Source: Spirochaetales bacterium (GTDB lineage Bacteria; Spirochaetota; Spirochaetia; Sphaerochaetales; Sphaerochaetaceae). Taken from it: 64,000 nucleotides of DNA. The stretch is from assembly GCA_028722305.1 (NCBI GenBank), contig JAQYHB010000018.1:1-64000 (forward strand). Direction: 5' to 3'. This document shows positions 32,694 to 49,035 of the stretch, one piece after another (the first letter of the stretch is position 1; each line of letters starts with the position of its first letter). A program made the translations under genes and the position numbers. A model generated the notes under the pieces. The model was not told where the DNA came from and ran no database searches. It saw only the letters and a program-made list of their open reading frames with translations.

Positions 32694-32960
32694 ATGGATA
32701 CGTTGAAGCAGGAGCTGAAACAGCTGATCATCTCGTCCTTGGATCTGGAGGATGTGAAGGTCGAGGATATCGCGGACGATGAGGCGCTGTTCGGAGAAGG
32801 ATTGGAGCTGGATTCCATCGACGCGCTGGAGCTCGGCATCGCCATCAAGAAGAAATACGGCGTGACTTTCTCGGCAGAGAACGAGGACAACAAGAAATAT
32901 TTCAAGAGTGTCGACACGCTTGCCCAGTATATTACCGAAAAGAGGAACGAATCGAAATGA
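32694..32960 (+). CDS. Acyl carrier protein (ApeE-like)
   Basis: An 88-residue acidic acyl carrier protein. The phosphopantetheine-attachment motif is LELDSIDALEL, with the modified Ser near residue 41. It is the first gene of the APE-type operon, with a strong promoter and AAGGAGG. It should carry growing chains or the starter as thioesters for the ketosynthases and dehydratases encoded downstream, after activation by the phosphopantetheinyl transferase at 41864. Its stop overlaps the start of the second carrier protein (ATGA). Having two different carrier proteins in tandem is typical of APE clusters. Confidence 0.9.
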   Translation: MDTLKQELKQLIISSLDLEDVKVEDIADDEALFGEGLELDSIDALELGIAIKKKYGVTFSAENEDNKKYFKSVDTLAQYITEKRNESK

Positions 32961-33208
32961 TGACCCGTGATGAGCTGTATGAATCGTTGAAGGAGGCGCT
33001 TTCCACCGACTTCGGCATCGACAAGGAGAAGGTTTCCCTTGATTCCAATCTGGTCGAGGATTTCGATTTGGATTCGATCGACGCCGCCGACCTGATTGTC
33101 AAATACAAGGAGTATCTGCCTGCCAAGGTGGATGCTGGCATGTTCCGTAGCATCCGCACCGTGCGCGATGTGCTTGACCTGCTGTGTCCAAGGGACAAGC
33201 AGGCCTGA
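32957..33208 (+). CDS. Acyl carrier protein (ApeF-like)
   Basis: An 83-residue acyl carrier protein with the attachment motif FDLDSIDAADL (Ser near residue 37). Its start overlaps the stop of the first carrier protein, so the two are translationally coupled. Its sequence differs clearly from the first one, so they probably serve different steps, such as starter loading versus elongation (inference). It ends 9 bases before the AMP-ligase fusion gene. Confidence 0.9.
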   Translation: MMTRDELYESLKEALSTDFGIDKEKVSLDSNLVEDFDLDSIDAADLIVKYKEYLPAKVDAGMFRSIRTVRDVLDLLCPRDKQA

Positions 33209-33217
33209 GGAGATGCG

Positions 33218-35164
33218 ATGCGACGGGTGGTCAAGATACTCGCTTCCCTTGTCGCATGCCTGTATCCCGTCATTGTGTTCCTATGCCTCGTCGTGTACCA
33301 CGTGCCGACGAGGATTTTTTCGCTCTGCCTGTTCGCGTTCGCAGGGGCTGTGTTCCTTGCCTCGGACCGGCACTCCGGCATGAACGGGCTCCGCTCGTTG
33401 ATCTTTCCACTGTTCCTGCTTGCCGCCGGACTTTGCCTGCTGCTTCTGCACAGCGACCTGGTGCTCCAGCTGTATCCGCTTCTGGTCTCCACGATGCTTT
33501 TCATTGTCTTCAGCGGTTCCCTGGCGGGAGGCTTCTCCATCGTCTGGAGGTTTGCCACGCTGGGCGACCGTCATCTTACCTTTTCCGCCAACCAGGCCGC
33601 GGTACAGCGTTATTGCAGACAGGTGACCAAGGTATGGATCGGATTCTTTGTGCTGAACTTCACGCTGTCGCTCATCACGGTCGTTGCGGACAACGCAGGC
33701 TGGTGGGCGCTGTATAACGGCGTGCTTTCCTATATACTGATGGGTATCCTCTTCGGGGGAGAATGGATGGTGCGGAAGATGGTGAACGCGCGATGGAATA
33801 AGACGATCCTGCTCTCCGAGACGCAGCGTGACAGCAGGCCGGATGACATGATTGTCTGCTATTCGGGCCGGTGGAGCGACCACAAGTTCCTCTACTGGAA
33901 GGACTATGTCGAGGATGTGGCGAAGGTGAAAGCCTTCGTGGAAACGAGCGACAAGCCCCGTTGGATCCTGCATAGCGACGACTTCTGGTATTTCGCGGTC
34001 GCCTTCGCGGCGCTCTGCCAGTGCCATAAGATCATCTGCCTGACCGCCAATATCGCTCCTGGATACCTTGACGAGCTGTTCGACAAGGATACCGCCATGT
34101 TGAGCGACGTCGAGACCGGGCGCAGTACCTTGATCGGGAAGCTGCTGGAGGCCCCGGTTCCCGCCGATCTCGGTTGGAACGCTATCGACGCAAGGAATAC
34201 GATCCTGTACCTGTATACCTCTGGCTCCACCGGAAAGCCGAAGGCGGTCAAGCATACGCTTTACGAGATGGAGCTGGATTACGACTTTGTCATGTCCATG
34301 TGGGGAAAAGAATTGCAAAAACGGATTCTGGTGAGCAGCGTGAACCCCCACCATATTTTCGGTTTCCTCTTTGCCGCCTTGAGGCCGGTCACCATCTGCG
34401 TTCCCTTCCGCCGTGAGCGGATTGTGCAGCCAGAGGAATTGCAGAGCCAGACGGACAGCCCGGTCACCTTCATTTCCACGCCCGCTTTCCTCAAGCGTTG
34501 CATCGAGGATCCAGACCTTGCCGGCGGTGCCGGCCTGAAGGACCCGCTGGTCATCGTCAGCGGAGGCGCCTTGCAACCCAAGGATGCTGCGGAGGCCGAA
34601 AGGGTGCTCGGCTCCTGGCCAATCGAGCTCTACGGTTCGACAGAAACCAGCGGCATCGCCTGGAGGCAGTCCAACAAGAGCCTGGAATGGAGCCCCTTCT
34701 TCGACGTCGGTTTCCGCAAGGGAGCGGACGGTTGCCTGATTTTGAACTCTCCTTTCATTGAGAACAAGCGGGACTTCGTCACCAGCGACCTCGTGGAAAT
34801 CCGGCCGGCCGGCCATTTCCTCCTCTTGGGCCGCAAGGATTCGGTTGTCAAGATCGAGGAAAAGCGGATCTCGCTGGCCGAGGTAGAGGGAAGGGTCATG
34901 GAACTAGGCATCGCGAAGGATTGCAGCGTGGTGGCGCTCAGCGACCGGAGGCAGTACCTGGCAGCGGTCGTCGTGTTGAATGAGAGGGGACATGAACTGT
35001 TGGATCCTATGAGTCCTGCCGAAAGGCTGAAGTATCTCAGGACTGCCCTTGCCAGGTGGTTCGAGCCGATTGTCATTCCTCGCAAGTGGCGTTTTGTCGC
35101 ACAGATCCCCCAGGATTCGATGGGGAAGAAGAAGCGCGTGGAAATCCTCGAGTTGTTCAAATGA
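33218..35164 (+). CDS. Membrane-domain/AMP-ligase fusion (ApeG-ApeH-like)
   Basis: A 648-residue fusion. Residues 1-190 hold about six transmembrane helices resembling the separate small membrane protein (COG4648, ApeG-like) of known APE clusters. Residues 205-648 are an AMP-forming acyl/aryl ligase: phosphate loop LYTSGSTGKPKAV near residue 331, YGSTETSGIAWRQ near residue 472, LLLGRKDSVVK, and the C-terminal catalytic Lys in DSMGKKKR near residue 634. It should adenylate the starter acid and load it on a carrier protein at the membrane face. The last 80 codons are nearly identical to those of the next gene. Substrate not readable. Confidence 0.85.
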   Translation: MRRVVKILASLVACLYPVIVFLCLVVYHVPTRIFSLCLFAFAGAVFLASDRHSGMNGLRSLIFPLFLLAAGLCLLLLHSDLVLQLYPLLVSTMLFIVFSGSLAGGFSIVWRFATLGDRHLTFSANQAAVQRYCRQVTKVWIGFFVLNFTLSLITVVADNAGWWALYNGVLSYILMGILFGGEWMVRKMVNARWNKTILLSETQRDSRPDDMIVCYSGRWSDHKFLYWKDYVEDVAKVKAFVETSDKPRWILHSDDFWYFAVAFAALCQCHKIICLTANIAPGYLDELFDKDTAMLSDVETGRSTLIGKLLEAPVPADLGWNAIDARNTILYLYTSGSTGKPKAVKHTLYEMELDYDFVMSMWGKELQKRILVSSVNPHHIFGFLFAALRPVTICVPFRRERIVQPEELQSQTDSPVTFISTPAFLKRCIEDPDLAGGAGLKDPLVIVSGGALQPKDAAEAERVLGSWPIELYGSTETSGIAWRQSNKSLEWSPFFDVGFRKGADGCLILNSPFIENKRDFVTSDLVEIRPAGHFLLLGRKDSVVKIEEKRISLAEVEGRVMELGIAKDCSVVALSDRRQYLAAVVVLNERGHELLDPMSPAERLKYLRTALARWFEPIVIPRKWRFVAQIPQDSMGKKKRVEILELFK

Positions 35165-36843
35165 GCGAGTTGGTCTCTCTTTCCCTGTTCGCGAGCCATC
35201 CTTGGCAGGAAGACCATGTGCTGATGGTCAAAGGTGGTGTTTCCAAGACGATGGCGGATCTTGCTGTGGAAAGCGGGGCGGTGCTCCGCTATGTCAAGAC
35301 TCATCCCCACCAGAACTGGCTGGTGCATAGCGACGACTACTGGAATACGCTCTGTGTCCTCTATGCGTTGCTGGAAGCGGGTCAGATTCCCTGTTTTGTC
35401 GGCTCGGTCGCCGATGGCTTCATCCAAGAGATAGCGGGTCCGGACGGATGGCTTCTGGCGGACGAGGAGGGTCGCCGTTCTTCCTGTATCGCCTCCTTGC
35501 TTTCCGGTCCCTCCGAGGACAGCCTGCTTCCCATTCGCGCCGACGCTCCGATTGTCCTTTATACCTCTGGCTCGACGGGGCACCCCGAGCGGGTGCTCCA
35601 TACACTGAAGGACTTGGAGGAAGGGGCCTCCATGGCCTATCGTGTCTGGTCGGAGCAGTTCGGCACGCGGCCATTCGCCACCAGCGTGCCACCCTACCAT
35701 ATCTACGGGTTCCTTTCCGTCCTGCTCCGTTCCCTGATCCGTGGCATCGTCCTCAAGAGCGAACGAGTCATGACCACCTTTCAGATGGGCAGGCTCGGAA
35801 ATGCCACATTCATGACTACCCCGTCGTTCCTCAAGGCGGTGCTGGCGGATCCGGCAAGCAAGGACGTCAACCTTTCTGAGGGCATGATTGTGACCAGCGG
35901 AGGGCTTCTGGACAAGGAAATCGCCAGTCAGTGCCTGGAGCGCTTCGGTACTTGGCCGTATGAGATTTACGGTTCGACGGAGACCGGCTCCATCGCCTGG
36001 CGTCAGAGCAAGGCCGACGAGGCATGGCGTCCTTTCCCGGGAATCGGCTGGGATGTGGGCGAAGACGGGCGTCTGGTGCTTCATTCTCCGCTGGTGAACG
36101 GAGGCCGGCCCTATGTGCATGATGATCTGGTCAAGGTGGCTGGCGGCGGACGCTTTTTCCTTTTGGGCCGGAGCGATTCGGTGGTCAAGATGGGCGAAAA
36201 GCGGATCTCGCTGGTCGAGGTGGAGGGCAGGATCATGGAGCTGGGCATCGCGAAAGACTGCAGCGTGGTGGCGCTCGGCGACCGGCGGCAGTACCTGGCC
36301 GCGGCCGTCGTGCTGAACGAGAAGGGGCACGCGCTCCTGGATCCGATGAGCCCCGCCGGAAGGCTGAAGTATCTCAGGACCGCCCTTGCCAGGTGGTTCG
36401 ATCCGATTGTCATTCCCCGCAAGTGGCGTTTTGTCGCGGCCATACCGGTCAATACGATGGGAAAGCGGAGACGGGAGGATATCATGGAGTTGCTGTCGGA
36501 CACATACAAGGGCGTGCGCATGCATGTGCAGAGTCAAGAGGAAGGAAAGGTGGTCCTTCTGGTGACGGTTTCCTCCAGTTCTCCTTTCTATGATGGGCAT
36601 TTCGACAACGGCATCAAGCTGCTGCCCGCCGTAGCCCAGATCGACATCGTCGTCCATGTGATCCGTACCTTCCTGGAGCCGGATTTCCTTCTGCTTTCCA
36701 TGCCGAAGTCCAAGTTCTCCGCCCCGATCAAGCCGGAGATGCCGCTTCTGTTGTCCGTAAAGGGGGCGTCCGGCCAGTATGTCTTCGTGTTCTCGAGGGA
36801 GGATGGTTCGGTCTGCGCCAAAGGAAGGGTGGGTAATGGCTGA
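35161..36843 (+). CDS. AMP-ligase fused to FabZ/ApeI-like dehydratase
   Basis: A 560-residue fusion. Residues 1-440 form a second AMP-ligase, a duplicate of the preceding one without the membrane part: SDDYWN, LYTSGSTGHPERV near residue 134, YGSTETGSIAWRQ near residue 270, NTMGKRRR near residue 432. In the phosphate loop the usual Pro-Lys is Pro-Glu, so activity may be altered. Residues 445-560 form a hot-dog domain with FYDGHFDNGIKLLPA, like ApeI/FabZ dehydratases. The ATG overlaps the previous stop (ATGA). Dehydratase and ligase on one chain suggests they act on the same carrier protein (inference). Confidence 0.85.
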   Translation: MSELVSLSLFASHPWQEDHVLMVKGGVSKTMADLAVESGAVLRYVKTHPHQNWLVHSDDYWNTLCVLYALLEAGQIPCFVGSVADGFIQEIAGPDGWLLADEEGRRSSCIASLLSGPSEDSLLPIRADAPIVLYTSGSTGHPERVLHTLKDLEEGASMAYRVWSEQFGTRPFATSVPPYHIYGFLSVLLRSLIRGIVLKSERVMTTFQMGRLGNATFMTTPSFLKAVLADPASKDVNLSEGMIVTSGGLLDKEIASQCLERFGTWPYEIYGSTETGSIAWRQSKADEAWRPFPGIGWDVGEDGRLVLHSPLVNGGRPYVHDDLVKVAGGGRFFLLGRSDSVVKMGEKRISLVEVEGRIMELGIAKDCSVVALGDRRQYLAAAVVLNEKGHALLDPMSPAGRLKYLRTALARWFDPIVIPRKWRFVAAIPVNTMGKRRREDIMELLSDTYKGVRMHVQSQEEGKVVLLVTVSSSSPFYDGHFDNGIKLLPAVAQIDIVVHVIRTFLEPDFLLLSMPKSKFSAPIKPEMPLLLSVKGASGQYVFVFSREDGSVCAKGRVGNG

Positions 36844-37570
36844 GTATGGATTCCTGATTCCGGTCTACAACCATGGCGCCGCCTGCCTGGAGACGGTCAG
36901 GCTCCTTTTGCCCTATGGTCTGGCCATCATCATCGTGGATGACGGAAGCAACGCGGAGACGAAACAGTCGCTACGGGAAGCCGCCGGGCTTTCTCCTTTC
37001 GTGCGCTTGGTTACCAAAGAACGGAATGGAGGAAAGGGAAGCGCGGTCTCAGCCGGACTCCTGGTCGCGGAAACGATGGGACTGGACCATGTGCTGCAAC
37101 TGGATGCCGACCGGCAGCACGACATTTCCGCCGTACCCCGGTTCCTCGCGCTTTCCCATGCCCACCCATCCAGCCTGATTCTCGGCTATCCGATCTATGA
37201 CGCGAGTGTCCCCGAGTCGCGGAAAAAAGGGCGCGAGGTCTCCAATGTCTTCGCCCGGATCGTCACCTGCGACAAGCAGATCAAGGATGTCCTGTGTGGT
37301 TTCCGCGTCTATCCGGTGGCCACTGCCTGCCAAGTTGTCAGCCATGGCATCTGGGACATGCGCATGGGCTTCGATGTCGAAGTGGTGGTTCGCCTTCGCT
37401 GGAAGCGCGTGCCCATCGTCAACGAAGGGGTCAAGGTCACCTATCCTGTCGGCGGGTCCTCCCATTTCCACATGGTCAGGGACAATATCCGCATCAGCCT
37501 GGTCTTCGCCAGGCTCTGCTTCGGCGCCCTCATCCGCCTGCCTTGGCTGGTCGCCCGGCGGGAGGGATAG
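36836..37570 (+). CDS. Family 2 glycosyltransferase (ApeJ N-part-like)
   Basis: A 244-residue GT2 glycosyltransferase with the nucleotide-sugar site IIIVDDGSN near residue 30, ERNGGKGSA near residue 63 and the metal-binding LDADRQHD near residue 89. A C-terminal hydrophobic helix may hold it at the membrane. In many APE clusters a GT2 and an LpxL-type acyltransferase form one protein; here they are two adjacent genes. It overlaps the preceding gene by 8 bases. It probably adds a sugar to a lipid anchor for the polyene (inference). Confidence 0.85.
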   Translation: MAEYGFLIPVYNHGAACLETVRLLLPYGLAIIIVDDGSNAETKQSLREAAGLSPFVRLVTKERNGGKGSAVSAGLLVAETMGLDHVLQLDADRQHDISAVPRFLALSHAHPSSLILGYPIYDASVPESRKKGREVSNVFARIVTCDKQIKDVLCGFRVYPVATACQVVSHGIWDMRMGFDVEVVVRLRWKRVPIVNEGVKVTYPVGGSSHFHMVRDNIRISLVFARLCFGALIRLPWLVARREG

Positions 37571-38494
37571 ATGGCCGGAGGGTGGAGCGGACAGAAGGAG
37601 CTTGGCGGCATGGGCATGATGTGCATGCTCTTCAAGGTGTGTCCGCACCCTCTGCTCTGCCTGATCGCCATTCCGGTCAGCTTCTTTTACTGGCTGGCTT
37701 CGCCCCGGCAACGGCACGCGGCCAAGGCGTACCTTGCCCATATGGGCAGAAAACGGGGCAGCTGGCGTTGCTTCTACGCCTTCAGCCTGACGTTGATTGA
37801 AAAGATCGAAGGCTGGGCGGGCAAATGCTCCTACGACGACCTGGTGTTTTTTGACGACGACCTGCCCGACCTGCGCAAGCGGCTTCAGTCGGGCAAGGGG
37901 GCGATGCTGTTCGTTTCCCACCAAGGGAACGCCGAGCTGATGCGGGGCTTGGCGACCGAGGGCAAGACCGGACTGGGCAAGCGGATCAAAATCCTCTCGT
38001 TCGTCTATTTCAAGGGTACGAGCCAGTTCAACGAGATGCTTCGGCGCGTGAACCCAGAGAGCATGGTGCACCTGGTGGACGCCAGTGGCATCACTCCCGA
38101 GACCATTGCCCAGGTGGAGGAAACGGTACAGGAGGGAGGCCTGGTCGTCATCGCGGGCGACCGGACCAGCATGACCCATGCCGAGCGGTCGCTGTCCATC
38201 CCCTTCCTGGGGAAGGAGGCGCGCTTTCCCTTCGGCGCCTTCTATCTGGCAGCACTGGTCGGAGTGCCCTCCTATTCGGTATGCTTTGAGCGGGTGAGGG
38301 ATCTTGGCTGGAAGCACCGCTTCGAGATGCATGTCTGGGCGAACCCACCGGTTGACCTCTCCAGCAGGAAGAGCCGCATGGAAGGCTCCCGCCAGGTCGC
38401 CCGCCACTTTGTCTCGCGTTTGGAGGCAGAGTGCCGCCGCCACCCTTACCAGTGGGGGAATTTCTACGATTTCTGGGAGGAGGGAATCCGATGA
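37571..38494 (+). CDS. LpxL/HtrB-type lysophospholipid or lipid acyltransferase
   Basis: A 307-residue membrane-associated acyltransferase. The family's H-x4-E motif is seen as SHQGNAE near residue 115, followed by ITPETIAQVEE and GDRTSMTHAERS near residue 197. A hydrophobic segment at residues 30-45 anchors it. In LpxL proteins this fold passes acyl chains from carrier proteins to lipid A. Here it may move the polyene acyl chain from its carrier protein to the glycosylated anchor. It starts directly after the glycosyltransferase stop with GGAGGG upstream. Confidence 0.85.
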   Translation: MAGGWSGQKELGGMGMMCMLFKVCPHPLLCLIAIPVSFFYWLASPRQRHAAKAYLAHMGRKRGSWRCFYAFSLTLIEKIEGWAGKCSYDDLVFFDDDLPDLRKRLQSGKGAMLFVSHQGNAELMRGLATEGKTGLGKRIKILSFVYFKGTSQFNEMLRRVNPESMVHLVDASGITPETIAQVEETVQEGGLVVIAGDRTSMTHAERSLSIPFLGKEARFPFGAFYLAALVGVPSYSVCFERVRDLGWKHRFEMHVWANPPVDLSSRKSRMEGSRQVARHFVSRLEAECRRHPYQWGNFYDFWEEGIR

Positions 38495-38916
38495 ATCCGT
38501 TTTCCGTGACGGTGGAGCGAAAAGTCGAGTTCTTTGATGTCGACCCGATGCGGGTCGTCTGGAACGGTAGGTATTTCGACTATTTCGAATGTGCCCGTTC
38601 CGCGTTGCTGGATGCCCTTTCCATTCCCTATGAGACGCTTGCCGAAGGTGGTTTGATGCTCTACGTGGTGCGCAATGAGGCCAAGTACATCCACCCCGTC
38701 CGCCTGCATGATACCATCCTGATCAAGGCAGTTTTGCGCGAATGGGAGTATCTGATCAGGATTGCATACGAGGTGCGGGACAAGCAGACCGGCCTTTTGT
38801 GCACCAAGGGCATGAGCGAGCAGATGCCGGCCCGGATTTCGGACGGGAAGGCACTGATGCAGCTACCCGAGCCATACCGCCTGAGCATCACGAAGCGGTT
38901 GGAGGATAAGGCATGA
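38491..38916 (+). CDS. Acyl-thioesterase, 4-hydroxybenzoyl-CoA thioesterase family (ApeK-like)
   Basis: A 141-residue hot-dog thioesterase with the family motif DVDPMRVVWNGRYFDYFE near residue 13, where the Asp is catalytic. Known APE clusters have a thioesterase at this position between the acyltransferase and the LolA gene. It could release a finished or stalled chain from a carrier protein. Its ATG overlaps the stop of the acyltransferase (ATGA), and its own stop overlaps the LolA-like gene start in the same way. Confidence 0.87.
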   Translation: MNPFSVTVERKVEFFDVDPMRVVWNGRYFDYFECARSALLDALSIPYETLAEGGLMLYVVRNEAKYIHPVRLHDTILIKAVLREWEYLIRIAYEVRDKQTGLLCTKGMSEQMPARISDGKALMQLPEPYRLSITKRLEDKA

Positions 38917-39560
38917 AAGCTGTGTGGGTGATACTGGTTTTCTTGTGCGCCACTTCGCTTTCCGCGCTCGACGTGGAGGACGACGGGGTGTTCGGGCACC
39001 CGGTGACGTTTGATGATGCTTCGTTCGTTTCCACCTACCAGACGGTGGCCTACAACGGCCCTTGGGTGGCGGATTTCACCCAGACCAAGCGGATTCATGG
39101 CGTCAATCGGACGTTCCGCTCGACGGGGACTATGCTGCTGCAGCCTTCCCGCGGCATCGTCTGGAACATGCGCAAACCCTATGCGTCGGTATTGGTCGTT
39201 GGTCCTTCGTATATCGTCCAGCAACTGCCAGGGCAGAAGACAAGCCGCATGGAGTTCGGCGACAACCAGATATTCACCCAGATTTCCCGGACCATCGAGA
39301 TGGTGCTTGCCGGCAATCTTGCTGCCTTGGACGACGCTTTTTCCCTTTCTTTCCAGAAGGAGGGAGCGGATTGGACCCTTGCGTTGGTTCCCAAGCAGGC
39401 TGAGGTCGCCTCGTTTGTTGATTCCTTCGTGCTCGGGGGAGCCGACGGGCTCAAGACCGTGTTGATGCGCGAGAAGGGCGGGGATTCGATCCGCTATGAT
39501 TTCTCCTCGATGGAGCGACGGAGCCTGAGCGATGACGAGCTCGCCTATTTCTCGCTGTAA
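38913..39560 (+). CDS. LolA-like lipid carrier protein (ApeL-like)
   Basis: A 215-residue exported protein. The signal peptide is MKAVWVILVFLCATSLSA. The mature part has the half-barrel pattern of LolA (VADFTQTKRIHGV, then TGTMLLQPSRGIVWNMRKPY). LolA proteins shuttle lipidated cargo across the periplasm. Members in APE clusters are thought to move the polyene lipid to the outer membrane. It is coupled to the thioesterase (ATGA overlap) and overlaps the exporter gene by 29 bases, so carrier and exporter are made together. Confidence 0.85.
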   Translation: MKAVWVILVFLCATSLSALDVEDDGVFGHPVTFDDASFVSTYQTVAYNGPWVADFTQTKRIHGVNRTFRSTGTMLLQPSRGIVWNMRKPYASVLVVGPSYIVQQLPGQKTSRMEFGDNQIFTQISRTIEMVLAGNLAALDDAFSLSFQKEGADWTLALVPKQAEVASFVDSFVLGGADGLKTVLMREKGGDSIRYDFSSMERRSLSDDELAYFSL

Positions 39561-41898
39561 CGCAAGGCGTTCCTTCCTCATCTGGCTGGGTTTTCACCTG
39601 GTCCTGCTCCTGCTGTTCCTCGCTACGTTGCTCGCCCGGTCCTCGATTGCCGTGACCAACAATCTGTTCGACCTGATCCCCACCTCGGAAGAGATGCGGG
39701 ATGTCGTTGTCGCCGAGCGCGAATTCTCCGACCGCTCCTCGCGTACCGTGCTCTTCTTCGTCATCTCCCCCGATTTCGGGCAGGCCAGGGAAAACGCCCT
39801 GCTTCTGGAGAGCAGGTTGCTGGAAACGGGTTCGTTCCTTGACCTAAGTGCATCCACGGGCTCGATGGTCTCGGTGGCGGAGCTCAATGACGAGCTTTCC
39901 CGGCTGAAGTTCGCGTTGCTGGACGAGGAGACGGAAAAGTCATTGCGCAATGGACGCTACCAGGACGTGGCCGATAGTGCCCTTTCGCTTGTCTATGGTG
40001 CTTTTCCTGTGCAGTCTCTCAGCCAGATCGACAAGGATCCATTCCTGCTTGCCGCGAGGGAGGGCAGGAGCCTTGTCTCCCAGCTTGCCTCCATGGGCGG
40101 CATGAGTCCGAAGGAGGGCGTGCTGGCAAGGGAAGTGGAGGGCTCCTGGTATGTGATGTTGCGGGGAGAGCTGACCGAAAAAGCGGTGGCGATGAACAAC
40201 AAAAGGGATATCGCTTCCGTTTTCCGGAGCTGTGGGGAACTGGAGAAGGAGACGGGAGTGCGGGTGGCCCTCAGCGGTATTCCCTTCCACAGCTGGGAGA
40301 GCTCGATGGGCGCGCAGCGGGAGCTTTTCATCATCACCTCCATCTCTCTCACCCTGGTCCTCTTGCTGTTCGTCTGGCTGTTCCGCAGTCCCTTGGTCAT
40401 CCTCCTGCTTTTTTTGGACATCCTGCTGGCCACCTGCTCGGCCATGGCCTGCGTCTTCTCGGTCTTTGGCGGGATGAACGTGCTGACGCTGGTCTTCGGC
40501 ACCACGCTGATTGGTACCTGCGTGGACTATTCGGTCCACTATGCGCTGCACGCTTGGTGGGACGAGGACGGCATGGATTCCCTTGCCACCCGGAACCGGC
40601 TCTTCAAGGGAATCGGTACCAGCTTCCTTTCCACATTCCTCTGCTATGCCCTGTTGCTGCTCGCCCCCTACCGCCTTCTGAAGGAGGTCGCGCTGTTCTC
40701 GATGGCGGGCCTGGCAAGCTCGTTCTTCACCAGCATGTTCCTGTACCCGGTCCTGTTCAGCCACCGCCGTTTCGCGCGGAAGGGCGTCGATGCCGGATCC
40801 TTTCGGGTGCCTTCTTGCGACCCATCGGCAAGGCGACGCCGGGTCATGGTCGTCGCGGCGGTCCTGCTTGCCGCCCTGTTCGGCCTCCTGTGCGTGCCCA
40901 GGATCCGGGTGCATAACGACCTCGCGAGCCTGTATAGCGTCAGCGACCGCATGAAACGCAACGAGGGCTTGGCCGCCAAAGCCATGCCGTACGCGACCTC
41001 GACCTACACGATTGTCAGCGCCGACAGCGAGGAAGAGCTCCTTTGTCGGGAGGAGGCCTTCGTCTCCGACTTGAGAGACCAGGGAGCTGGCGCGCCGATA
41101 GCGACCAGCATGCTCGTGCCCTCCGCCAGGTTGCAACAGGAACGGCTGTCCTTGGTGCGCGGGCTCTACGAGGCCGAGCTCGACCGGCAGTGCGAGGCGT
41201 TGGGGTGTGACGCCCAGGCAGCGTGGTCTGAGCTGGAAACGCTGGCCAGCGCTCCGGTTACTGTCAATGACGCGCTGTCCCTTCCGGTTGCCCGCCAGCT
41301 TGTCGACCGGCTCTGGATCGGGGAGATCGACGGGAGATATTACAGCGCCGTCATGGTGTTGGACGCCGATCTGGCGAGGGTGGAGGAGATAGCGGGAAAG
41401 CATGCGGGAATCTGGTTCTTCAACACGGCTCGGGACATCTCGCGCCAGCTCGACGTGCTGACTGGGACAATCCTCCGGATCCTGCTCTGTTCGTTCGTCC
41501 TGATGGTGCTGCTGCTCGGATGCGCCTACGGCTTCAGGCGCTCGCTCGGTTACCATCTTTCGCCCTTGGTGATCCTGATGGTGACGGTGGGATGCATGGT
41601 CCTTTTCGAGGGGGCGGTGGACTTCTTCACCGTGGTGGCTTTGGTCCTTTCCGTGGGGCTCGGACTGGACTATGTGGTGTTCATGATGGAGATGAAGGGG
41701 ATGGAGGAACGCAAGCGGTCGGTCAGCTTTGTGGCCGTCGCCTTCTCGTTTGCCACGAGCGCCCTTTCGTTCGGGACTCTGGCCTTCTCATCGTTCCGCC
41801 CGGTGCGCCTGTTCGGTCTGGCCGTTTCGGTCGGTCTCTGCACCGCCTACCTGTTTTCCCTGTTCATGCGAAGAGTGGACGGGCGAAAGGAAGCGTGA
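39532..41898 (+). CDS. MMPL/RND-type exporter (ApeM-like)
   Basis: A 788-residue exporter with two similar halves, each with one N-terminal helix, a large extracytoplasmic domain and a group of five helices, about twelve helices in all. The first helix spans residues 15-36; typical segments are TLIGTCVDYSVHYALHAWW near residue 325 and SVGLGLDYVVFMMEM near residue 710. MMPL proteins extract lipids from the cytoplasmic membrane using proton flow. It starts inside the LolA-like gene and overlaps the oppositely oriented phosphopantetheinyl transferase gene by 35 bases. It probably passes the polyene lipid to the LolA-like carrier. Confidence 0.88.
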   Translation: MTSSPISRCNARRSFLIWLGFHLVLLLLFLATLLARSSIAVTNNLFDLIPTSEEMRDVVVAEREFSDRSSRTVLFFVISPDFGQARENALLLESRLLETGSFLDLSASTGSMVSVAELNDELSRLKFALLDEETEKSLRNGRYQDVADSALSLVYGAFPVQSLSQIDKDPFLLAAREGRSLVSQLASMGGMSPKEGVLAREVEGSWYVMLRGELTEKAVAMNNKRDIASVFRSCGELEKETGVRVALSGIPFHSWESSMGAQRELFIITSISLTLVLLLFVWLFRSPLVILLLFLDILLATCSAMACVFSVFGGMNVLTLVFGTTLIGTCVDYSVHYALHAWWDEDGMDSLATRNRLFKGIGTSFLSTFLCYALLLLAPYRLLKEVALFSMAGLASSFFTSMFLYPVLFSHRRFARKGVDAGSFRVPSCDPSARRRRVMVVAAVLLAALFGLLCVPRIRVHNDLASLYSVSDRMKRNEGLAAKAMPYATSTYTIVSADSEEELLCREEAFVSDLRDQGAGAPIATSMLVPSARLQQERLSLVRGLYEAELDRQCEALGCDAQAAWSELETLASAPVTVNDALSLPVARQLVDRLWIGEIDGRYYSAVMVLDADLARVEEIAGKHAGIWFFNTARDISRQLDVLTGTILRILLCSFVLMVLLLGCAYGFRRSLGYHLSPLVILMVTVGCMVLFEGAVDFFTVVALVLSVGLGLDYVVFMMEMKGMEERKRSVSFVAVAFSFATSALSFGTLAFSSFRPVRLFGLAVSVGLCTAYLFSLFMRRVDGRKEA

Positions 41899-42403
41899 CC
41901 TCGCACCCATAGACGCTGAGCACGAACATGCCTTCCTCTGTCCGGTAGCAGGAGCTCGCAAGCGGAAGCCCCTCCAGCTCCGGGGTGGCAAGCAGCTTGA
42001 GAAGCGGCTTGCCCGTCGCCTTCATCATCGCCTCCATCCGTGTCCAGACATAGCAGAAGCGTAACGGGGTCTCCGCCTTTAGGATCCATTCCGCGCGCCC
42101 AGGGTCGATGAAGCGCTCGGCAAGCTCGTGGTATGACCGCCTTTCGTCCACATGCTGGACGTCGATGCCGAGTCGGGCGCGCTCCGGTCCGACGAGCACG
42201 ACGACCTCGCCCTCCGAGTGGGAGATGGAAAGCGCCGCGGGAATCTGGGGACAGTAGGGCTTGCCCTCCTCCGTATGGCCGATGGAGAGAGCTGAGGGTT
42301 CGGTGGCGCACAGCTTCGCGAACGCCTGCTTGGCAAGCGACTCAGCAAGGATATGCTGTCGCTTTGCCTTTTCCACACGGGAAAGGACTGTGCTGTTTGA
42401 CAT
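41864..42403 (-). CDS. 4'-phosphopantetheinyl transferase
   Basis: A 179-residue Sfp/AcpT-type enzyme that attaches the phosphopantetheine arm to carrier proteins. It shows SISHSEGEVVV near residue 56, GIDVQHVDERRS near residue 78 and the W-x3-E-x3-K motif as WTRMEAMMKATGK near residue 124. It lies on the strand opposite the operon, between exporter and lipoprotein genes, and its end overlaps the exporter gene by 35 bases. The ATG at 42403 has no ribosome site and a TATCAT box 6 bases upstream, so it may be leaderless. A dedicated transferase supports a self-contained pathway. The frame runs further upstream but without homology. Confidence 0.85.
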   Translation of the reverse strand: MSNSTVLSRVEKAKRQHILAESLAKQAFAKLCATEPSALSIGHTEEGKPYCPQIPAALSISHSEGEVVVLVGPERARLGIDVQHVDERRSYHELAERFIDPGRAEWILKAETPLRFCYVWTRMEAMMKATGKPLLKLLATPELEGLPLASSCYRTEEGMFVLSVYGCEVTLPFARPLFA

Positions 42404-42425
42404 GTGCCCATGATACAGGTAGTAT
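42397..42425 (+). promoter_or_regulatory. Internal promoter for the second half of the cluster
   Basis: TTGACA (42397-42402), 17 bases, TAGTAT (42420-42425), upstream of the lipoprotein gene at 42458. The -35 box overlaps the start codon of the divergent phosphopantetheinyl transferase gene, so the two transcripts may interfere. Confidence 0.65.
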
Positions 42426-42457
42426 TCATGTACCTTGTTTGCAGGAGAGGAATTCCC

Positions 42458-43030
42458 GTGAATCATCGTCTGCTTTCGGCCCTCTTGTTCTCCATGATAC
42501 TCCTTCTTGCCGGATGTGTCTCCACTCGGCAGGCGGGCAAGGTCTACGTGACCGATGGCGCGCAGGTCGCGCTGCTGCCCACGAATGACATGGAGGGAAC
42601 GGTGGACGCGATGCATCTGCTTGCCGGCTCCTACAAGGACCGATCCTTTAACCTGAACGCCTATGTGTGTGCCGACAGCGGCATGATTTCGGTGACGGTC
42701 ATGACCACCATGGGGAACACGATTGCCACGCTCTCCTACGAAGGGGAGAGCATCACCAAAGCCACCAGCGCGATCAACGGTGTCCCTTTCCCCGCCGAGT
42801 ATTTCTTCTTTGATTTCCAGTTCTGTTTTTATCGGGCCGACGCCCTGAAGGAACTGTTCGACGCGGCGGGTCTGTCCTTTACGGAAGAAGAGAAAGATGG
42901 AGTGATCCGCCGCACGCTCACCGACGGCTCTAGGGTCGTCGCCACGGTGGACAAAAGCGAGGCCGGCATCTCTTTCTCCAACCAGCTGAGAGGGTATTCC
43001 TATACGATTGTGGTGGTCCCCGATGCCTGA
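42458..43030 (+). CDS. Lipoprotein, DUF3261-like, of the APE-type cluster
   Basis: A 190-residue lipoprotein. It has a short positively charged start, a hydrophobic stretch and the lipobox LLLAGC with Cys near residue 20. The rest is beta-rich (QVALLPTNDMEG, later VPFPAEYFFFDFQF) and resembles the DUF3261 proteins encoded in APE clusters. The start is the GTG at 42458 after AGGAGAGG, because the frame from 42404 would bury the signal peptide. It overlaps the following ketosynthase by 8 bases. It may help to insert the product at the outer membrane (inference). Confidence 0.75.
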   Translation: MNHRLLSALLFSMILLLAGCVSTRQAGKVYVTDGAQVALLPTNDMEGTVDAMHLLAGSYKDRSFNLNAYVCADSGMISVTVMTTMGNTIATLSYEGESITKATSAINGVPFPAEYFFFDFQFCFYRADALKELFDAAGLSFTEEEKDGVIRRTLTDGSRVVATVDKSEAGISFSNQLRGYSYTIVVVPDA

Positions 43031-44180
43031 CCGCATAGCGCTCTCGCACCCCTTTGTCATCACCAACCTTGCCCAGGACCCCCTGGAGCTTTACCACGCT
43101 GTCCTGGCAGGCAAGCCTGCGTTCTCCTCCATGCAGGTGTACGGCAAGTCCTATCTGTTCGCCGACGTGCCCGCGCGCTATGAGGACAAAGCGGAGCGTT
43201 CCTACCACAAGGGCATGTGCAAGGCCTTGGTGGAGGGCTACCTGCCCGTCGTTGCCTCTTTGAGGGAACGCTATGGAAAGGATCGGGTCGCTCTGCTTGT
43301 CGCCACCTGCGACTACCAGAGCGAGTGGTCAACTCCCGCGATGGGGTATTATTTCGCCCATCAGTCCTTCCCGCAAGGCTATACCCTGTATCGGCAGAGT
43401 CCCGCGTGGTCGGTGGATTTCCTGCAGGGCGAGTGGGACCTGGAGGGCATCGGCGAGACGCTTTCCACCGCTTGTTCGACCGGAGCCGGCATGCTGGCCC
43501 GCGCCCGTGACTTGATCGAGGCTGGCTTCGCCGATGCCGTGGTCGCCGTGGGCTATGACCTTGCCTACGATGTCGTCTGTATGGGTTTCGACAGCCTTGG
43601 GGTCTACGCCACCGAGGGGACGAACCCCTCGAGCCTGAACCGGAAAGGGGTGACCCTTGGCACCGGACTTGGAGCCTTGGCGGTCACAGCCGGCCCTCAA
43701 ACGGGTGACTGGGTGTTGCTTGGCGTCGGTGAGTCGAATGATGCCTATCATATCACCGGGCCCGATCCCGAAGGAAATGGGGCGGAAGCATGCATGCGCC
43801 GCGCCCTATCGGACGCCAGCCTTGAGCCGGAGGATATCGGCTACATCAACCTGCACGGGACCGGCACCCATGCCAATGATCTGATGGAGGCGCTTGCCAT
43901 CGACCGGATTTTCGGCTGTAGCGTGCCTGTCAGCTCAACCAAGAGCCTGACGGGGCACACGCTGGGGGCAAGCGGGGCAATCGAGACGATTCTTTGCATG
44001 GAAACTCTTGCCCACGGCATGCTTCCTCCGCATGTCTTTGACGGTGTGCGGGACCCCGCCCTGCCACCTCTCACGTTTGTCGAGCAGGGAAAGCGCTATC
44101 CCCGGCCGCGTGCATGCATGAGCAACTCCTTTGCCTTTGGCGGGAACAACGTTTCGGTAATCGTGGGGGTGGAGGAATGA
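43023..44180 (+). CDS. Beta-ketoacyl-ACP synthase (ApeO-like)
   Basis: A 385-residue ketosynthase. The active-site residues are complete: Cys151 in STACSTGAGM, His in NLHGTGTHANDLME near residue 278, and His in SLTGHTLGASGAIE near residue 312. The family condenses malonyl-ACP with an acyl starter. In the characterised APE system one ketosynthase pairs with a chain-length-factor partner; here that partner is probably the protein at 49803. It overlaps the lipoprotein gene by 8 bases and the dehydratase gene by 4, so all are translated in one chain. Confidence 0.9.
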   Translation: MPDRIALSHPFVITNLAQDPLELYHAVLAGKPAFSSMQVYGKSYLFADVPARYEDKAERSYHKGMCKALVEGYLPVVASLRERYGKDRVALLVATCDYQSEWSTPAMGYYFAHQSFPQGYTLYRQSPAWSVDFLQGEWDLEGIGETLSTACSTGAGMLARARDLIEAGFADAVVAVGYDLAYDVVCMGFDSLGVYATEGTNPSSLNRKGVTLGTGLGALAVTAGPQTGDWVLLGVGESNDAYHITGPDPEGNGAEACMRRALSDASLEPEDIGYINLHGTGTHANDLMEALAIDRIFGCSVPVSSTKSLTGHTLGASGAIETILCMETLAHGMLPPHVFDGVRDPALPPLTFVEQGKRYPRPRACMSNSFAFGGNNVSVIVGVEE

Positions 44181-44644
44181 AGCTGCCGATCATGGGAAAG
44201 GAATCGGTCGCCCTTCTGGTGCCGCACAAGCGGAGCATGCTTCTGCTTGACGGGATCCTTGGCTTTGACCGGGAGAAAGGACAGGTGACGAGCTTGACGG
44301 AGGTCGATCGGCCCAACCTCTTTTTTGACGGGAATCTCAATGGCATTCCCGGGTATGTCTGTTTTGAGCTGATGGCGCAGACAATCAGCGCCTATGACTA
44401 TCTGATGAGCGGAGGCATGGATGGCAAGCCAAAGGTCGGCTTCATCCTAGGGGTCGACAAGCTGAAGGTGCTTCGGCCGGTGATTTCCCAAGGCAGCCGT
44501 ATTGTGACTACCATCAGGCAGGAATGCGCCATCGGAGATGCGATGTTTTCCTTTGTGGGGGAATCGAAGGTCGGGGACGAGACGGTGGCGAACGCGACGC
44601 TGATGGTGTACACCGTCCTGCGTCCGGAAGGGTTCTTGGGGTGA
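44177..44644 (+). CDS. 3-hydroxyacyl-ACP dehydratase, hot-dog fold (ApeP-like)
   Basis: A 155-residue hot-dog protein with LVPHKRSMLLLDGI near residue 12 and YVCFELMAQT near residue 60. The Glu of FELMAQ matches the acidic catalytic residue of FabA/FabZ, but the usual GHF histidine is absent (it reads FDGNL). The ligase-dehydratase fusion at 35161 has GHF instead. The two may thus form one heteromeric dehydratase, as described for ApeI and ApeP. It makes the double bonds during each elongation cycle. Confidence 0.85.
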   Translation: MKLPIMGKESVALLVPHKRSMLLLDGILGFDREKGQVTSLTEVDRPNLFFDGNLNGIPGYVCFELMAQTISAYDYLMSGGMDGKPKVGFILGVDKLKVLRPVISQGSRIVTTIRQECAIGDAMFSFVGESKVGDETVANATLMVYTVLRPEGFLG

Positions 44645-44649
44645 GGAAA

Positions 44650-45372
44650 ATGGAGAAACAGGTTCTTGTGACCGGCAGCAGTGGCGGCATTGGCGGCAGT
44701 ATTGTCCGAGTCCTGGCCAAGGCCGGCTATCGGGTGACCGCGTGCTATCGTGGTCATGAGGAGCGGGTCCTGGCGCTACAGGCCGGGATTCGGGAAGAAG
44801 GGGGCAGCTGCGAGTTGCTTCGTTTCGATATCGCCGACCGGAAGGGGACGGAGGAGGCGCTGAACGGCTGGCTGGAGGACCATGGCGCCCCTTGGGGGGT
44901 CGTCTGCAACGCCGGCATATGCAGGGACAATGTCTTCCCAGCGATGGATGGTGACGACTGGGACCAGGTGCTTCATACCAATTTGGACGGTTTCTACAAT
45001 GTCGTGCACCCGCTCGTCATGCCGATGTGTCGCAAGCGCAAGGGCCGGATTGTCGTGATGAGCTCGATCAGTGGAATTGTCGGCAACCGCGGACAGGTCA
45101 ACTACAGCGCCTCGAAGGCGGGCCTGATAGGCGCCTCGAAGGCTCTGGCTGCCGAGCTGGCGAGCCGCTCGATCACCGTCAACTGCATCGCTCCCGGCAT
45201 CATCGACACCGAGATGCTCAAGGGGCTTCCGATGGAGGAGCTGCTGAAGCTGGTGCCGATGAAACGGCTGGGCAAGCCGGAAGAGGTCGCGGCCTTGGTC
45301 CTGTTTTTGCTTTCCGAGGAGGCTGGCTACATCACCCGGCAGGTGATCAGCGTGAATGGAGGAATGGAATGA
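44650..45372 (+). CDS. 3-oxoacyl-ACP reductase (FabG family, ApeQ-like)
   Basis: A 240-residue short-chain dehydrogenase. The nucleotide-binding motif TGSSGGIGGS is near residue 8, CNAGICRDN near residue 87, the catalytic Ser in VVMSSISGIVGN and the Tyr-Lys pair in YSASKAGLIG near residue 152. It reduces the 3-keto group in each extension cycle. Two starts are possible: GTG 44641 overlapping the dehydratase stop, and ATG 44650, which begins MEKQVLVTG as in FabG proteins; I prefer the latter. Its stop overlaps the next ketosynthase start. Confidence 0.9.
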   Translation: MEKQVLVTGSSGGIGGSIVRVLAKAGYRVTACYRGHEERVLALQAGIREEGGSCELLRFDIADRKGTEEALNGWLEDHGAPWGVVCNAGICRDNVFPAMDGDDWDQVLHTNLDGFYNVVHPLVMPMCRKRKGRIVVMSSISGIVGNRGQVNYSASKAGLIGASKALAAELASRSITVNCIAPGIIDTEMLKGLPMEELLKLVPMKRLGKPEEVAALVLFLLSEEAGYITRQVISVNGGME

Positions 45373-46592
45373 AGCGTACCGTAGTGGTTACCGGCGGTGG
45401 GGTAGTGACCCCTTTGGGGAACGGTCCAGAATCGATTCTGGCAAGCCTTCGCGCTCGAAGGAACTTTGTCGTCAAGGATTCAAGTCTGGAGGAATACCGG
45501 AACCTGCGCTGCCATCTCTGCGCCCCGGTGGCTGAGGAGCTGCCTGAGTATCCCCGCAAGCTGGTGCGGGGCATGGGGCGCGTCGCGCTCCTGGCTCTGA
45601 CCGCCACCGAACGGGCCCTCCGTATGGCTGGCATCGCAGCTGGCGACCCGATGTTGAAGAATGGTCGCGCCGGTATCGCCTATGGCTCCTCGGCGGGGGA
45701 TGTGGATGCCATGATGGACTTCTACGGCCTATTGGTGACCAAGGACTCGAAAAAGATGAATCCTACCACCTACATCAAGGAAATGCCCCAGACCTGCGCG
45801 GCTAACCTTTCGGTCTACTACGGCCTGACCGGACGGCTGATCACCACCAATACCGCCTGTACCAGTGGCAGCCAGTCGATCGGTTATGCCTACGAGACAA
45901 TTGCCTCTGGCAAGCAGGACCTGATGATCGCAGGTGGTTCTGAAGAGCTTTCCCCTGCCGACATCGGGGTCTTCGACTCGATGTTCGCCGCCAGCACGAT
46001 GAACGACGAGCCCTCCCGGACCCCACGCGCCTATGACAAGGATCGCGATGGCCTGGTGATTGGCGAGGGTGCCGGTACCCTGATCCTTGAGGAAAAGGAG
46101 CATGCCCTTGCCCGGGGTGCTCGTATCTATGGGGAGATTGCAGGTTTCGCGACCAATACCGATGGCGTGCATATCACCCATCCGAACAGAGACACCATGG
46201 CGCAGGTGATGCGGCTCGCCATCGAGGATTCAGGCGTGGATCCCGCCGAGATCGGCTACGTGAACACCCATGGCACTGCCACGATTGAGGGTGATATCGC
46301 CGAAAGCAACGCCACGTATGACGTGTTCCAGCGTCCGATTGCCGCAAGCACGATCAAGGGGTATATCGGCCATACCCTCGGCGCCTGTGGCGCCATTGAA
46401 GCCTGGGTGACGTTGCTGATGCTTCATGAGGGATGGTTCGCGCCGAACCTGAACCTGGAGGCGGTAGACCCGCAGTGCGGACCACTTGGCTATATCACGG
46501 GGGACGGGCTCTCGCTGGTGACAGGCTACGCGATGAGTAATAATTTTGCGTTTGGAGGCATCAATACTTCGTTGATTCTGAAGAGGGGTTGA
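45369..46592 (+). CDS. Beta-ketoacyl-ACP synthase II type (ApeR-like)
   Basis: A 407-residue FabF-type ketosynthase. The full active site is present: Cys164 in NTACTSGSQS, His in NTHGTATIEGD near residue 300, and His in KGYIGHTLGACGA near residue 337. It is coupled to the reductase gene by an ATGA overlap. Known APE clusters carry two active ketosynthases, and this is the second. It is longer than the one at 43023 and closer to FabF, so the two probably act at different chain lengths or with different partners (inference). Confidence 0.92.
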   Translation: MKRTVVVTGGGVVTPLGNGPESILASLRARRNFVVKDSSLEEYRNLRCHLCAPVAEELPEYPRKLVRGMGRVALLALTATERALRMAGIAAGDPMLKNGRAGIAYGSSAGDVDAMMDFYGLLVTKDSKKMNPTTYIKEMPQTCAANLSVYYGLTGRLITTNTACTSGSQSIGYAYETIASGKQDLMIAGGSEELSPADIGVFDSMFAASTMNDEPSRTPRAYDKDRDGLVIGEGAGTLILEEKEHALARGARIYGEIAGFATNTDGVHITHPNRDTMAQVMRLAIEDSGVDPAEIGYVNTHGTATIEGDIAESNATYDVFQRPIAASTIKGYIGHTLGACGAIEAWVTLLMLHEGWFAPNLNLEAVDPQCGPLGYITGDGLSLVTGYAMSNNFAFGGINTSLILKRG

Positions 46593-46596
46593 AACG

Positions 46597-48084
46597 ATGA
46601 CGGGATGGAAAGCGAGCGAGGCGGGATTGGCGGAACGGAGGAAGGCGCTGAAAGAGCGCATGGAGGCGCAGAAGAAGGGGCGACATACCGCCTACGAGCG
46701 TCTGGAGATGCTGCTTGATCCCGCATCGTTCCATGAGGTGGGTTCTCTCCGCCGCTCCCACCTTTCCGACACTCCCGCCGGGGACGGAGTGGTGACTGGC
46801 TATGGTACCATCGCAGGCCGGCAAGTCTTTGTCTCCAGTGAGGATTTTTCTGTTTCCGGAGGTTCGGTGGGCGAGGTCCATGCCTCCCGCATCGCCCATA
46901 TCATCGACCTTGCCCTCGAGGCTGGTTGCCCCTATATCGCCCTGAACGAGAGCGGGGGAGCCCGGATCGGCGAGGGCATCGTCGGCCTTTCGGGCTACGG
47001 CGACATCTTCCGGGCAAACGTGCGCGCCAGCGGAAAGATTCCCCAGATTGCCGTGATTCTCGGTTCCTGCGCAGGAGGGGCCTGCTACAGCCCGGCCCTC
47101 TGCGATTTCCTCTTCATGGTCAAGGGTCAGTCGCGCATGTTCCTTACCGGACCCGCCGTGGTCAAGTCGGTGTTGTTCGAGGATGTCTCTCCCGAGCAAC
47201 TTGGCGGCAGCGACCTGCACGGTGGCGAGAGCGGGGTCGCGCATTTCGTCTATGAGGATGAGAAGAGCTGCCTTGAGGGGGTCAGACGCTTGCTTGCCTA
47301 TCTGCCCCAGACGTGGGACCAGGAGGTTCCCCCCGTGCCGGCAAAGTCGCCGCTGCGGGGTTCCCTTGAGGAGATTGTGCCGGACAATGGCAAGAAGGCC
47401 TACGACATGCGCCGGGTGATTGACTGTATTGTCGATGCCAAGAGTTTCTTGGAGGTCCACAAGGATTGGGCGGGCAATGTTCTGACCGGTTTCGCCCGTC
47501 TTGATGGGCGTTCGATCGGCATTGTCGCCAGCCAGAGCATGGTGCTCGGGGGCGCGATCGACGACAGGGCAAGCATGAAGATCGCCCGTTTCGTCCAGAG
47601 TTGCGACTGCTTTGGCATCCCGCTTCTGACCATGGTCGATGTGACGGCCTTTCTTCCGGGTCCCGACATGGAAAGGAAGGGCATTATCCGCCACGGAGCC
47701 AAGGTGCTGTACGCCTACAGTGCCTCCACGATGCCGAAGGTGACGGTAATCCTGCGGAAAGCCTACGGCGGTGCCTATATCGCCTTGGGCAGCAAGTCGA
47801 TTGGAGCCGACCTGGTCTACGCCTGGCCTGGAGCGGAGATTGCGGTCCTTGGTGCGGCTGGAGCCGTACGGATCCTTCACCGCAAGGAGATTGCGGCGGG
47901 CAAGGATGAGGCGGGTTTCATCTCCGCCTACGAGGAGAACTTCTGCAATCCCTACATCGCCGCCGAATATGGGTTCGTCGACGAGGTGATCATGCCGGAT
48001 GAGACGAGGGAAGCGGTCTGCAGGGGCTTTCGCCTGCTTGCAGGCAAGCAGCGTGGGCCCGCGCACGGGAACATGCCGCTCTAG
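46597..48084 (+). CDS. Acyl-CoA carboxyltransferase (biotin-dependent, AccD/PccB type)
   Basis: A 495-residue carboxyltransferase with both halves of the crotonase-like fold: YIALNESGGARIGEG near residue 110, ILGSCAGGACYSPAL near residue 149, KAYGGAYIALGSKS near residue 388. Enzymes of this type transfer CO2 from biotin to acetyl- or propionyl-CoA, or run the reverse reaction in decarboxylases. No biotin carboxylase or carrier gene lies in the window. Sitting 4 bases after the second ketosynthase, it probably supplies malonyl-CoA for the pathway. It is not a standard gene of described APE clusters. Its last 4 bases overlap the convergent fabD gene. Confidence 0.87.
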   Translation: MTGWKASEAGLAERRKALKERMEAQKKGRHTAYERLEMLLDPASFHEVGSLRRSHLSDTPAGDGVVTGYGTIAGRQVFVSSEDFSVSGGSVGEVHASRIAHIIDLALEAGCPYIALNESGGARIGEGIVGLSGYGDIFRANVRASGKIPQIAVILGSCAGGACYSPALCDFLFMVKGQSRMFLTGPAVVKSVLFEDVSPEQLGGSDLHGGESGVAHFVYEDEKSCLEGVRRLLAYLPQTWDQEVPPVPAKSPLRGSLEEIVPDNGKKAYDMRRVIDCIVDAKSFLEVHKDWAGNVLTGFARLDGRSIGIVASQSMVLGGAIDDRASMKIARFVQSCDCFGIPLLTMVDVTAFLPGPDMERKGIIRHGAKVLYAYSASTMPKVTVILRKAYGGAYIALGSKSIGADLVYAWPGAEIAVLGAAGAVRILHRKEIAAGKDEAGFISAYEENFCNPYIAAEYGFVDEVIMPDETREAVCRGFRLLAGKQRGPAHGNMPL

Positions 48085-48992
48085 GCCCGCATGTCCTCTA
48101 CCGTGCCGAACGTCCGGAAGCATACGTCTGGATCATCCTTGAGAATCGCCTTGTTGAAGCCAGAGAGCGTATGTCCGGGACCCATCTCGTAAAACGCGTC
48201 GAATCCGTCTTTCCGCATCGCCCTGATGGTCTGCATCCAGAGCACCGGGCTGGTCGTCTGTTCCAGTACCAGGTTCCGGATCTGCTCCTTGTCGGTATGG
48301 GGCCTCGCATCGACGTTCAGGTAGACCGGCTTGGCCGCGTCATGCCACACGAGTTTGGCGAATGCTTCCTCCAAGGCTTTCCTCGCGCTCTCGAGGAGCG
48401 GCGTGTGGAAAGGTGCGCTCACCGGAAGAAGGACGCCGCGGACATGGTACTCTTTCAGGTATTCGAGCGCCCTTGCCACGGCTGCCGCCTCACCGGAGAG
48501 CACGGTCTGTTTGGGTGAGTTGTAGTTGGCTGGCAGCACGACTCCACCTGCCTTGCCGCAGGCTTTTTCCAGTAGTTCCTCTGGGCATTCCTTGATGGCG
48601 GCCATGGCTCCGGTTCCCTCGGGCACGGCGCTCTGCATGGCGTCGGCGCGGAACTGCACCAGCCTGAGCGCGTCTTCGAACGAAAGGACGCCGCTCGCGG
48701 CAAGGGCGACATACTCGCCCAGCGAGAAGCCTGCATATCCCTCTGCCTCATAGCCCTCCTTCCTTGCCGCTTGAAAGATCGCGTAGTCCACCGTGAATGT
48801 GCAGGGCTGGGTGTTGTGGGTGAGTTTGAGTTCCTCCTCTCTTCCTTCAAGGCAAAGTTTGGAGATGGGCCGGCCGAGCACTTGATCGGCGAGGGAGAAG
48901 ATCGCCTTGGATACGTCGTAGGTTTGGACATAGTCCCGTCCCATGCCCGGATACTGTGCTCCCTGTCCGCTGAAGAGAAAGGCTTGTTTCAT
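48081..48992 (-). CDS. fabD: Malonyl-CoA:ACP transacylase
   Basis: A 303-residue FabD-type acyltransferase. FSGQGAQYPGMG is near residue 6, the catalytic Ser in GFSLGEYVAL near residue 91, and the His in VSAPFHTPLL near residue 200. It loads malonyl units on a carrier protein. Two ATGs lie 6 bases apart (48998 and 48992); AAGGA spaces correctly with the second. It is the last gene of the minus-strand operon with the methyltransferase, chain-length factor and acyltransferase, and it meets the carboxyltransferase gene tail to tail. It could serve the cluster or also housekeeping fatty-acid synthesis, depending on other copies. Confidence 0.9.
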   Translation of the reverse strand: MKQAFLFSGQGAQYPGMGRDYVQTYDVSKAIFSLADQVLGRPISKLCLEGREEELKLTHNTQPCTFTVDYAIFQAARKEGYEAEGYAGFSLGEYVALAASGVLSFEDALRLVQFRADAMQSAVPEGTGAMAAIKECPEELLEKACGKAGGVVLPANYNSPKQTVLSGEAAAVARALEYLKEYHVRGVLLPVSAPFHTPLLESARKALEEAFAKLVWHDAAKPVYLNVDARPHTDKEQIRNLVLEQTTSPVLWMQTIRAMRKDGFDAFYEMGPGHTLSGFNKAILKDDPDVCFRTFGTVEDMRA

Positions 48993-49035
48993 ACGCATGT
49001 CCTTTACAAAGAGATATGCCGCCACAGGGCGGACT

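Follow-up and report, generated by a model that had tools for sequence, protein, structure and literature searches.

How can two adjacent ligase genes differ clearly over most of their length and yet be nearly identical over the last stretch of the ligase part? Genes A and B raise this question in a 64,000-nucleotide stretch of a Spirochaetales genome (positions 1 to 64,000 of contig JAQYHB010000018.1, assembly GCA_028722305.1; hereafter the window). The original prediction was of a tandem duplication followed by divergence, with gene conversion keeping the carrier-facing C-terminal subdomain alike, which would make two ligases of different substrate use with the same carrier partner. We compared the pair of the window's species (A1 and B1, genome G000) with that of a sister species (A2 and B2, genome G002, OMYY01000027). 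Two congeners of the window's genome were in the collection; the other, G001, had no match to the ligase at E 1e-30, and only two genomes carry the A/B pair.

Gene A matches PF00501 over residues 322-483 and, below threshold, PF13193 over residues 555-637, and its N-terminal region is 38-41% identical to the equivalent region of the single-copy fusions of relatives (Table 1). Gene B matches PF00501 (residues 130-300) and the ApeI-like family PF22818 (residues 453-546). It starts at ATG 35161, overlapping the stop codon of A, or alternatively at GTG 35155. By motif alignment both proteins contain ANL motifs A3, A5, A7 and A8 and the A10 lysine, except that the A3 lysine is missing from B. At this P-loop position A and 30 of 30 aligned homologues of the class have lysine, and B1 and B2 (L043) both have glutamate. 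Gene B is the fast copy, with a long branch in the protein tree. Its core dN/dS between the species (B1-B2) is about 0.16, indicating that B is maintained by selection. Given a P-loop glutamate despite purifying selection on the gene, catalysis by B may be unusual.

Table 1. Features of the ligase pair and the surrounding cluster, in window coordinates
Feature	Position	Strand	Description or basis
Acyl carrier protein 1 (ACP1), ApeE position	32694..32960	+	PF00550, PRK09184 (NCBIfam) above cut-off
Acyl carrier protein 2, ApeF position	32960..33208	+	PF00550, PRK05350 above cut-off
Gene A	33218..35164	+	ApeG-position N-terminal membrane region fused to AMP-forming ligase (ApeH); 648 aa
A-copy counterpart of converted tract, donor-type	34859..35101	+	88% identity, 1:1 mapping to 36196-36438
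Gene B	35155..36843	+	Second ligase (ApeH') fused to ApeI-like dehydratase; 560-562 aa
P-loop (A3) Glu codon of B, within STGHPE	35587..35589	+	Motif alignment
Left anchor, conserved A8 block	36175..36195	+	Longest A2/B2 identical run, 19 bp
Converted tract in B, A-type	36196..36438	+	Site patterns, breakpoints, NG86 dS/dN, shuffle test, unconverted sister B
Right anchor, VIPRKWRFVA block	36409..36438	+	Two 14-bp A2/B2 identical runs
ApeI-like 3-hydroxyacyl-ACP dehydratase domain of B	36493..36840	+	PF22818
GT	36779	+	Family matches, order in relatives
AT	37571	+	Family matches, order in relatives
TE	38488	+	Family matches, order in relatives
LolA	38913	+	Family matches, order in relatives
MMPL	39532	+	Family matches, order in relatives
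DUF3261	42404	+	Family matches, order in relatives
KS	43008	+	Family matches, order in relatives
ApeP-like DH	44177	+	Family matches, order in relatives
KR	44641	+	Family matches, order in relatives
KS	45366	+	Family matches, order in relatives

The surrounding cluster is of aryl-polyene (APE) type. Compared with the table of PMC8253772, its set and order of genes, ACP-ACP-ApeG-ApeH-ApeI-GT/AT-TE-LolA-MMPL-DUF3261-KS-DH-KR-KS, match gene for gene the APE cluster of E. coli CFT073 and Xenorhabdus (ApeE-F-G-H-I-J-K-L-M-N-O-P-Q-R), with two ACPs and the ApeG-like, ApeH-type, ApeI-/ApeP-like dehydratase, LolA, MMPL and DUF3261 families in common, and an aryl polyene is the predicted product. The rest of the cluster, from GT to the last KS, spans 36779..46592 on the forward strand, with separate GT and AT genes in place of J. 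The E. coli and Xenorhabdus clusters have one ligase, whereas the window has two, an ApeG-H fusion and an ApeH'-I fusion. Among open-licence papers we found none on two-ligase APE clusters or on gene conversion of the C-terminal subdomain (Asub). Two ketosynthases are encoded in the cluster (43008-46589); near the ligases we recognised no additional gene for a third (ApeC, chain length factor). A candidate phosphopantetheinyl transferase ORF, recognised by eye, lies inside the cluster on the reverse strand (41867-42430) and is 86% identical in the sister species. Right after the cluster (46597-49151 region) comes a carboxyltransferase (PF01039), adjoined by a malonyl-ACP transacylase-like ORF, again recognised by eye (48081-49151, reverse strand); together they possibly serve malonyl supply.

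Relatives have the same gene order and one ligase fused to the ApeG-like region. Their ApeI-like dehydratase is either fused behind the ligase (716-819 aa) or encoded by a separate ORF right after it (G093 and G088, genomes of the same family). In other spirochaetes such as G046, G093 and G173, these single-copy GH or GHI ligases share fusion partners and position with the window's pair, and in the core most have 41-50% identity with A. They have the P-loop lysine and no H' copy, which the window adds. The syntenic ACP of the relatives is 62-66% identical to ACP1. A match to the ligase was found in 51 of 395 genomes sampled from the class and in 58 of 393 sampled across the phylum, and in both samples two copies occurred in this genus only. 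The single-copy state of relatives implies that a duplication gave GH plus H'I, in agreement with the predicted tandem origin; in the core, A and B as one clade were neither supported nor rejected (AU test, p 0.32). The genus-specific duplication placed H' exactly between ligase and dehydratase (33218-36843).

Divergence along the ligase alignment is far from uniform, as a nearly identical C-terminal tract in an otherwise divergent pair had implied. In the core, A1 and B1 share 50% of nucleotides over 292 codons, with dS about 1.7 (near saturation) and dN 0.68. In the tract, identity rises to 88% over 80 codons (243 bp), with dS 0.46, dN 0.045 and dN/dS about 0.1, and over the 18 codons directly downstream it is back to 61%; the reading frame of B is intact throughout. 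With BLASTN the only long match was one of 335 bp at 83% identity where the ligase part ends, with nothing but fragments elsewhere. The tract had been placed at 34880-35120 and 36220-36450, within about 25 bp of the measured limits. The shared runs LKYLRTALARWF and PIVIPRKWRFVA, quoted from it beforehand, are present in both genes, and their DNA matches at these two places only in the window (chance expectation 0). Identity that is raised at synonymous sites as well and ends abruptly is the pattern of gene conversion. The tract lies, as proposed, in the AMP-binding C-terminal subdomain, the PF13193 region, and runs from just past the A8 hinge block to VIPRKWRFVA, leaving the A10 loop outside. 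We located it by motif together with Pfam and PDB sequence matches; an AlphaFold model of B1 (four sequences, shallow alignment) had a mean pLDDT of 35 and was unusable.

The sister species provides the unconverted state of the orthologue. It has the same cluster order, and all genes are 86-96% identical between the two species except B (84%), so that B is exceptional only through the tract. A1 and A2 are about 90% identical along their whole length. Identity between B1 and B2 is 86% for the core and 89% for the dehydratase region and drops to 61% within the tract; on either side of the tract B2 is vertical. Within the sister pair, A2 and B2 share only 60% of tract DNA, with dS about 1.5. As diagnostic we counted sites that separate B2 from both A genes and at which B1 sides either with the A genes (A-type) or with B2 (vertical). 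Vertical sites outnumber A-type sites by 357 to 34 upstream of 36190 and by 18 to 2 after 36440, whereas inside 36211-36440 the counts are 7 vertical and 67 A-type. The observed maximal-segment score of 66 compares with a highest value of 12 in 20,000 site shuffles.

Both edges of the tract coincide with short identical runs. The left breakpoint lies between 36195 and 36198 and the right one between 36423 and 36439. A2 and B2 share just four identical runs of at least 14 bp, at 35968 (14 bp), 36175 (19 bp), 36409 (14 bp) and 36424 (14 bp). Of these, the 36175 run ends just before the left edge, and the right edge falls within the 36409 and 36424 runs. At the protein level the edge runs correspond to the A8 block, DSVVKxxEKRIS (left), and to VIPRKWRFVA (right), so that the homology for crossover was probably supplied by conserved protein motifs. 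The right edge stops short of the A10 catalytic-lysine loop (MGK), whose B-type sequence (36439-36500) begins right at the tract edge. Thus core and A10 loop were kept together and the part between them was exchanged.

We infer direction and timing from the same alignments, and the simplest reading is that sequence moved from A to B. Had homogenisation acted within each species, the B1 tract should be closest to its own A; instead, it is 88.3% identical to A1 and 90.4% to A2. Tract dS is 0.46 for A1-B1, 0.25 for A2-B1 and 0.47 for A1-A2, and the tract sites at which one sequence alone differs number 17 for A1, 11 for A2 and 11 for B1 (12, 5 and 6 at third positions). Since the B1 tract is no closer to A1 than to A2, the event was probably not a recent copy from the resident A1. 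A single event near the species split is the simplest explanation of the high identity; two readings are left standing, an event about as old as the split or a donor that was the A allele of another lineage. The best protein tree of the tract (77 columns, weakly supported) places B1 with B2 at 79/73; grouping B1 with A1 and A2 instead costs 2.4 log units and is not rejected on so short an alignment. No third ligase copy that might have acted as donor was found elsewhere in the window's genome.

These results uphold tandem paralogues and gene conversion and go against continuous upkeep, because the sister pair is unconverted and B1 has not stayed nearer to its own A. The proposal can be saved by assuming that Asub undergoes continuous or repeated concerted evolution for a common carrier and that the sister species is caught between rounds. 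In its favour, the B2 tract, although unconverted, lies nearer to A than the B2 core would lead one to expect: the portion of the path from A to the outgroup that follows the A/B fork amounts to 0.20 (0.07-0.32) for the B2 tract and 0.44 (0.33-0.55) for the core, and the A-B2 tract distance is 0.52 as against 0.82-1.79 across 77-column core blocks. Moreover, the B2 tract is 58-63% identical to A and at most 49% to every other match in the 395 class genomes, none of which offered an outside donor closer than A. Behind this closeness may stand an older conversion round or a tract that evolves more slowly in B. The sign is weaker and leaves room for episodic conversion; of what remains, it gives the strongest support to a subdomain that is kept alike. 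On the other hand, the sister's dS of about 1.5 places any homogenisation there well before the split, and the older signal could stem from stronger constraint on the Asub of B than on its core. We therefore regard concerted evolution as rather unlikely.

The lower dS of B1 to A2 than to A1 also fits a tract that crossed lineages, the A-type DNA in B having come from a related strain or species instead of from the resident A. The excess comprises few sites (17 at which B1 equals A2, 10 or 11 at which it equals A1), and the near-star tree is what resident conversion at the split would give, and we regard this source, too, as rather unlikely. One could also invert the argument and regard B2 as the replaced copy, the A-like tract being ancestral in B and the sister having imported a divergent one. 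The long branch of the B2 tract would agree with this, but an earlier conversion would be needed as well, the species split is at least as old as the A-B1 tract divergence, the class genomes hold no closer donor, and the G+C3 of the B2 tract is like that of its flanks (0.72 vs 0.73); we consider such an import very improbable. Both genomes are apparently metagenome-assembled (56 and about 90 contigs) and short shared runs bound the tract, so an assembler might have joined an A-type tract into B. No 16S gene was found in either genome, which is weak evidence, as the same search also failed to detect the gene in 5 of the 14 genomes used as controls. Such a chimera is judged highly unlikely because 11 tract sites of B1 are absent from both A1 and A2 and the edge runs, at only 14-19 bp, are shorter than usual k-mers; the intact frame and the low tract dN/dS also speak against it. 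Purifying selection or convergence without recombination could appeal to functional constraint on the subdomain. This candidate is ruled out by the fall in dS from about 1.7 to 0.46: synonymous sites, too, are alike in the tract. Its edges, moreover, are sharp, and the similarity is missing from B2. Outgroup pairs show no contrast between core (51.6% identity) and tract (52.7%), which means that the region is not conserved to an unusual degree.

The explanation that we consider probable is a duplication of ApeH followed, near the species split, by the overwriting of about 243 bp of B with A-type sequence. Tandem duplication of ApeH between ApeG and ApeI gave ApeG-H (A) and ApeH'-I (B), after which the core of B diverged quickly. 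Near the split from the sister, about 243 bp from an A gene would have replaced the matching part of B by homologous recombination, with crossovers in the A8 and VIPRKWRFVA blocks, almost the sole identical runs of at least 14 bp that remained. B1 would thus be a natural chimera that has its own core, A10 loop and dehydratase and the Asub of A.

Once adenylation is complete, the C-terminal subdomain of ANL ligases turns and assists in accepting the phosphopantetheine arm of the carrier. It is from this that we infer an effect: the most likely consequence, still tentative, is that A and B1 have come to charge a common acyl carrier, with starters that differ or are processed differently. Xenorhabdus ApeH is reported to load 4-hydroxybenzoate onto ACP directly, and ApeE has been proposed as the preferred loading carrier in E. 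coli (PMC8253772), making the ApeE-type ACP1 the most likely candidate here. Neutral overwriting without functional effect is nearly as likely. Two ligases with one carrier is only one option, because two different ACPs are encoded just upstream and B has no P-loop lysine. It is also conceivable, though decidedly unlikely, that B has acquired a new role, using another starter or forming the thioester from the adenylate made by A, and was re-aimed to A's carrier by the transplanted Asub.

Natural recombination in NRPS adenylation domains exchanges the substrate-binding core (PMC9205934). As there, the window shows paralogous adenylating enzymes, breakpoints at core motifs and a chimeric product. 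However, the NRPS exchanges swap the core from A2 to A5/A6 and retain the interface, whereas here it is the core that is retained and the segment from A8 to before A10 that is swapped, and the enzyme is a stand-alone type II ligase. With two ligases in one aryl-polyene cluster, the locus shows an arrangement that we found in a single uncultured spirochaete genus only. It also presents a carrier-facing subdomain exchanged in nature with the core untouched and an unconverted sister as control, and A1, B1, A2 and B2 together with the two ACPs form a clean test set for the role of Asub. If B was indeed re-aimed by its Asub, the sister species would be a natural before-and-after pair for carrier specificity in ANL enzymes.
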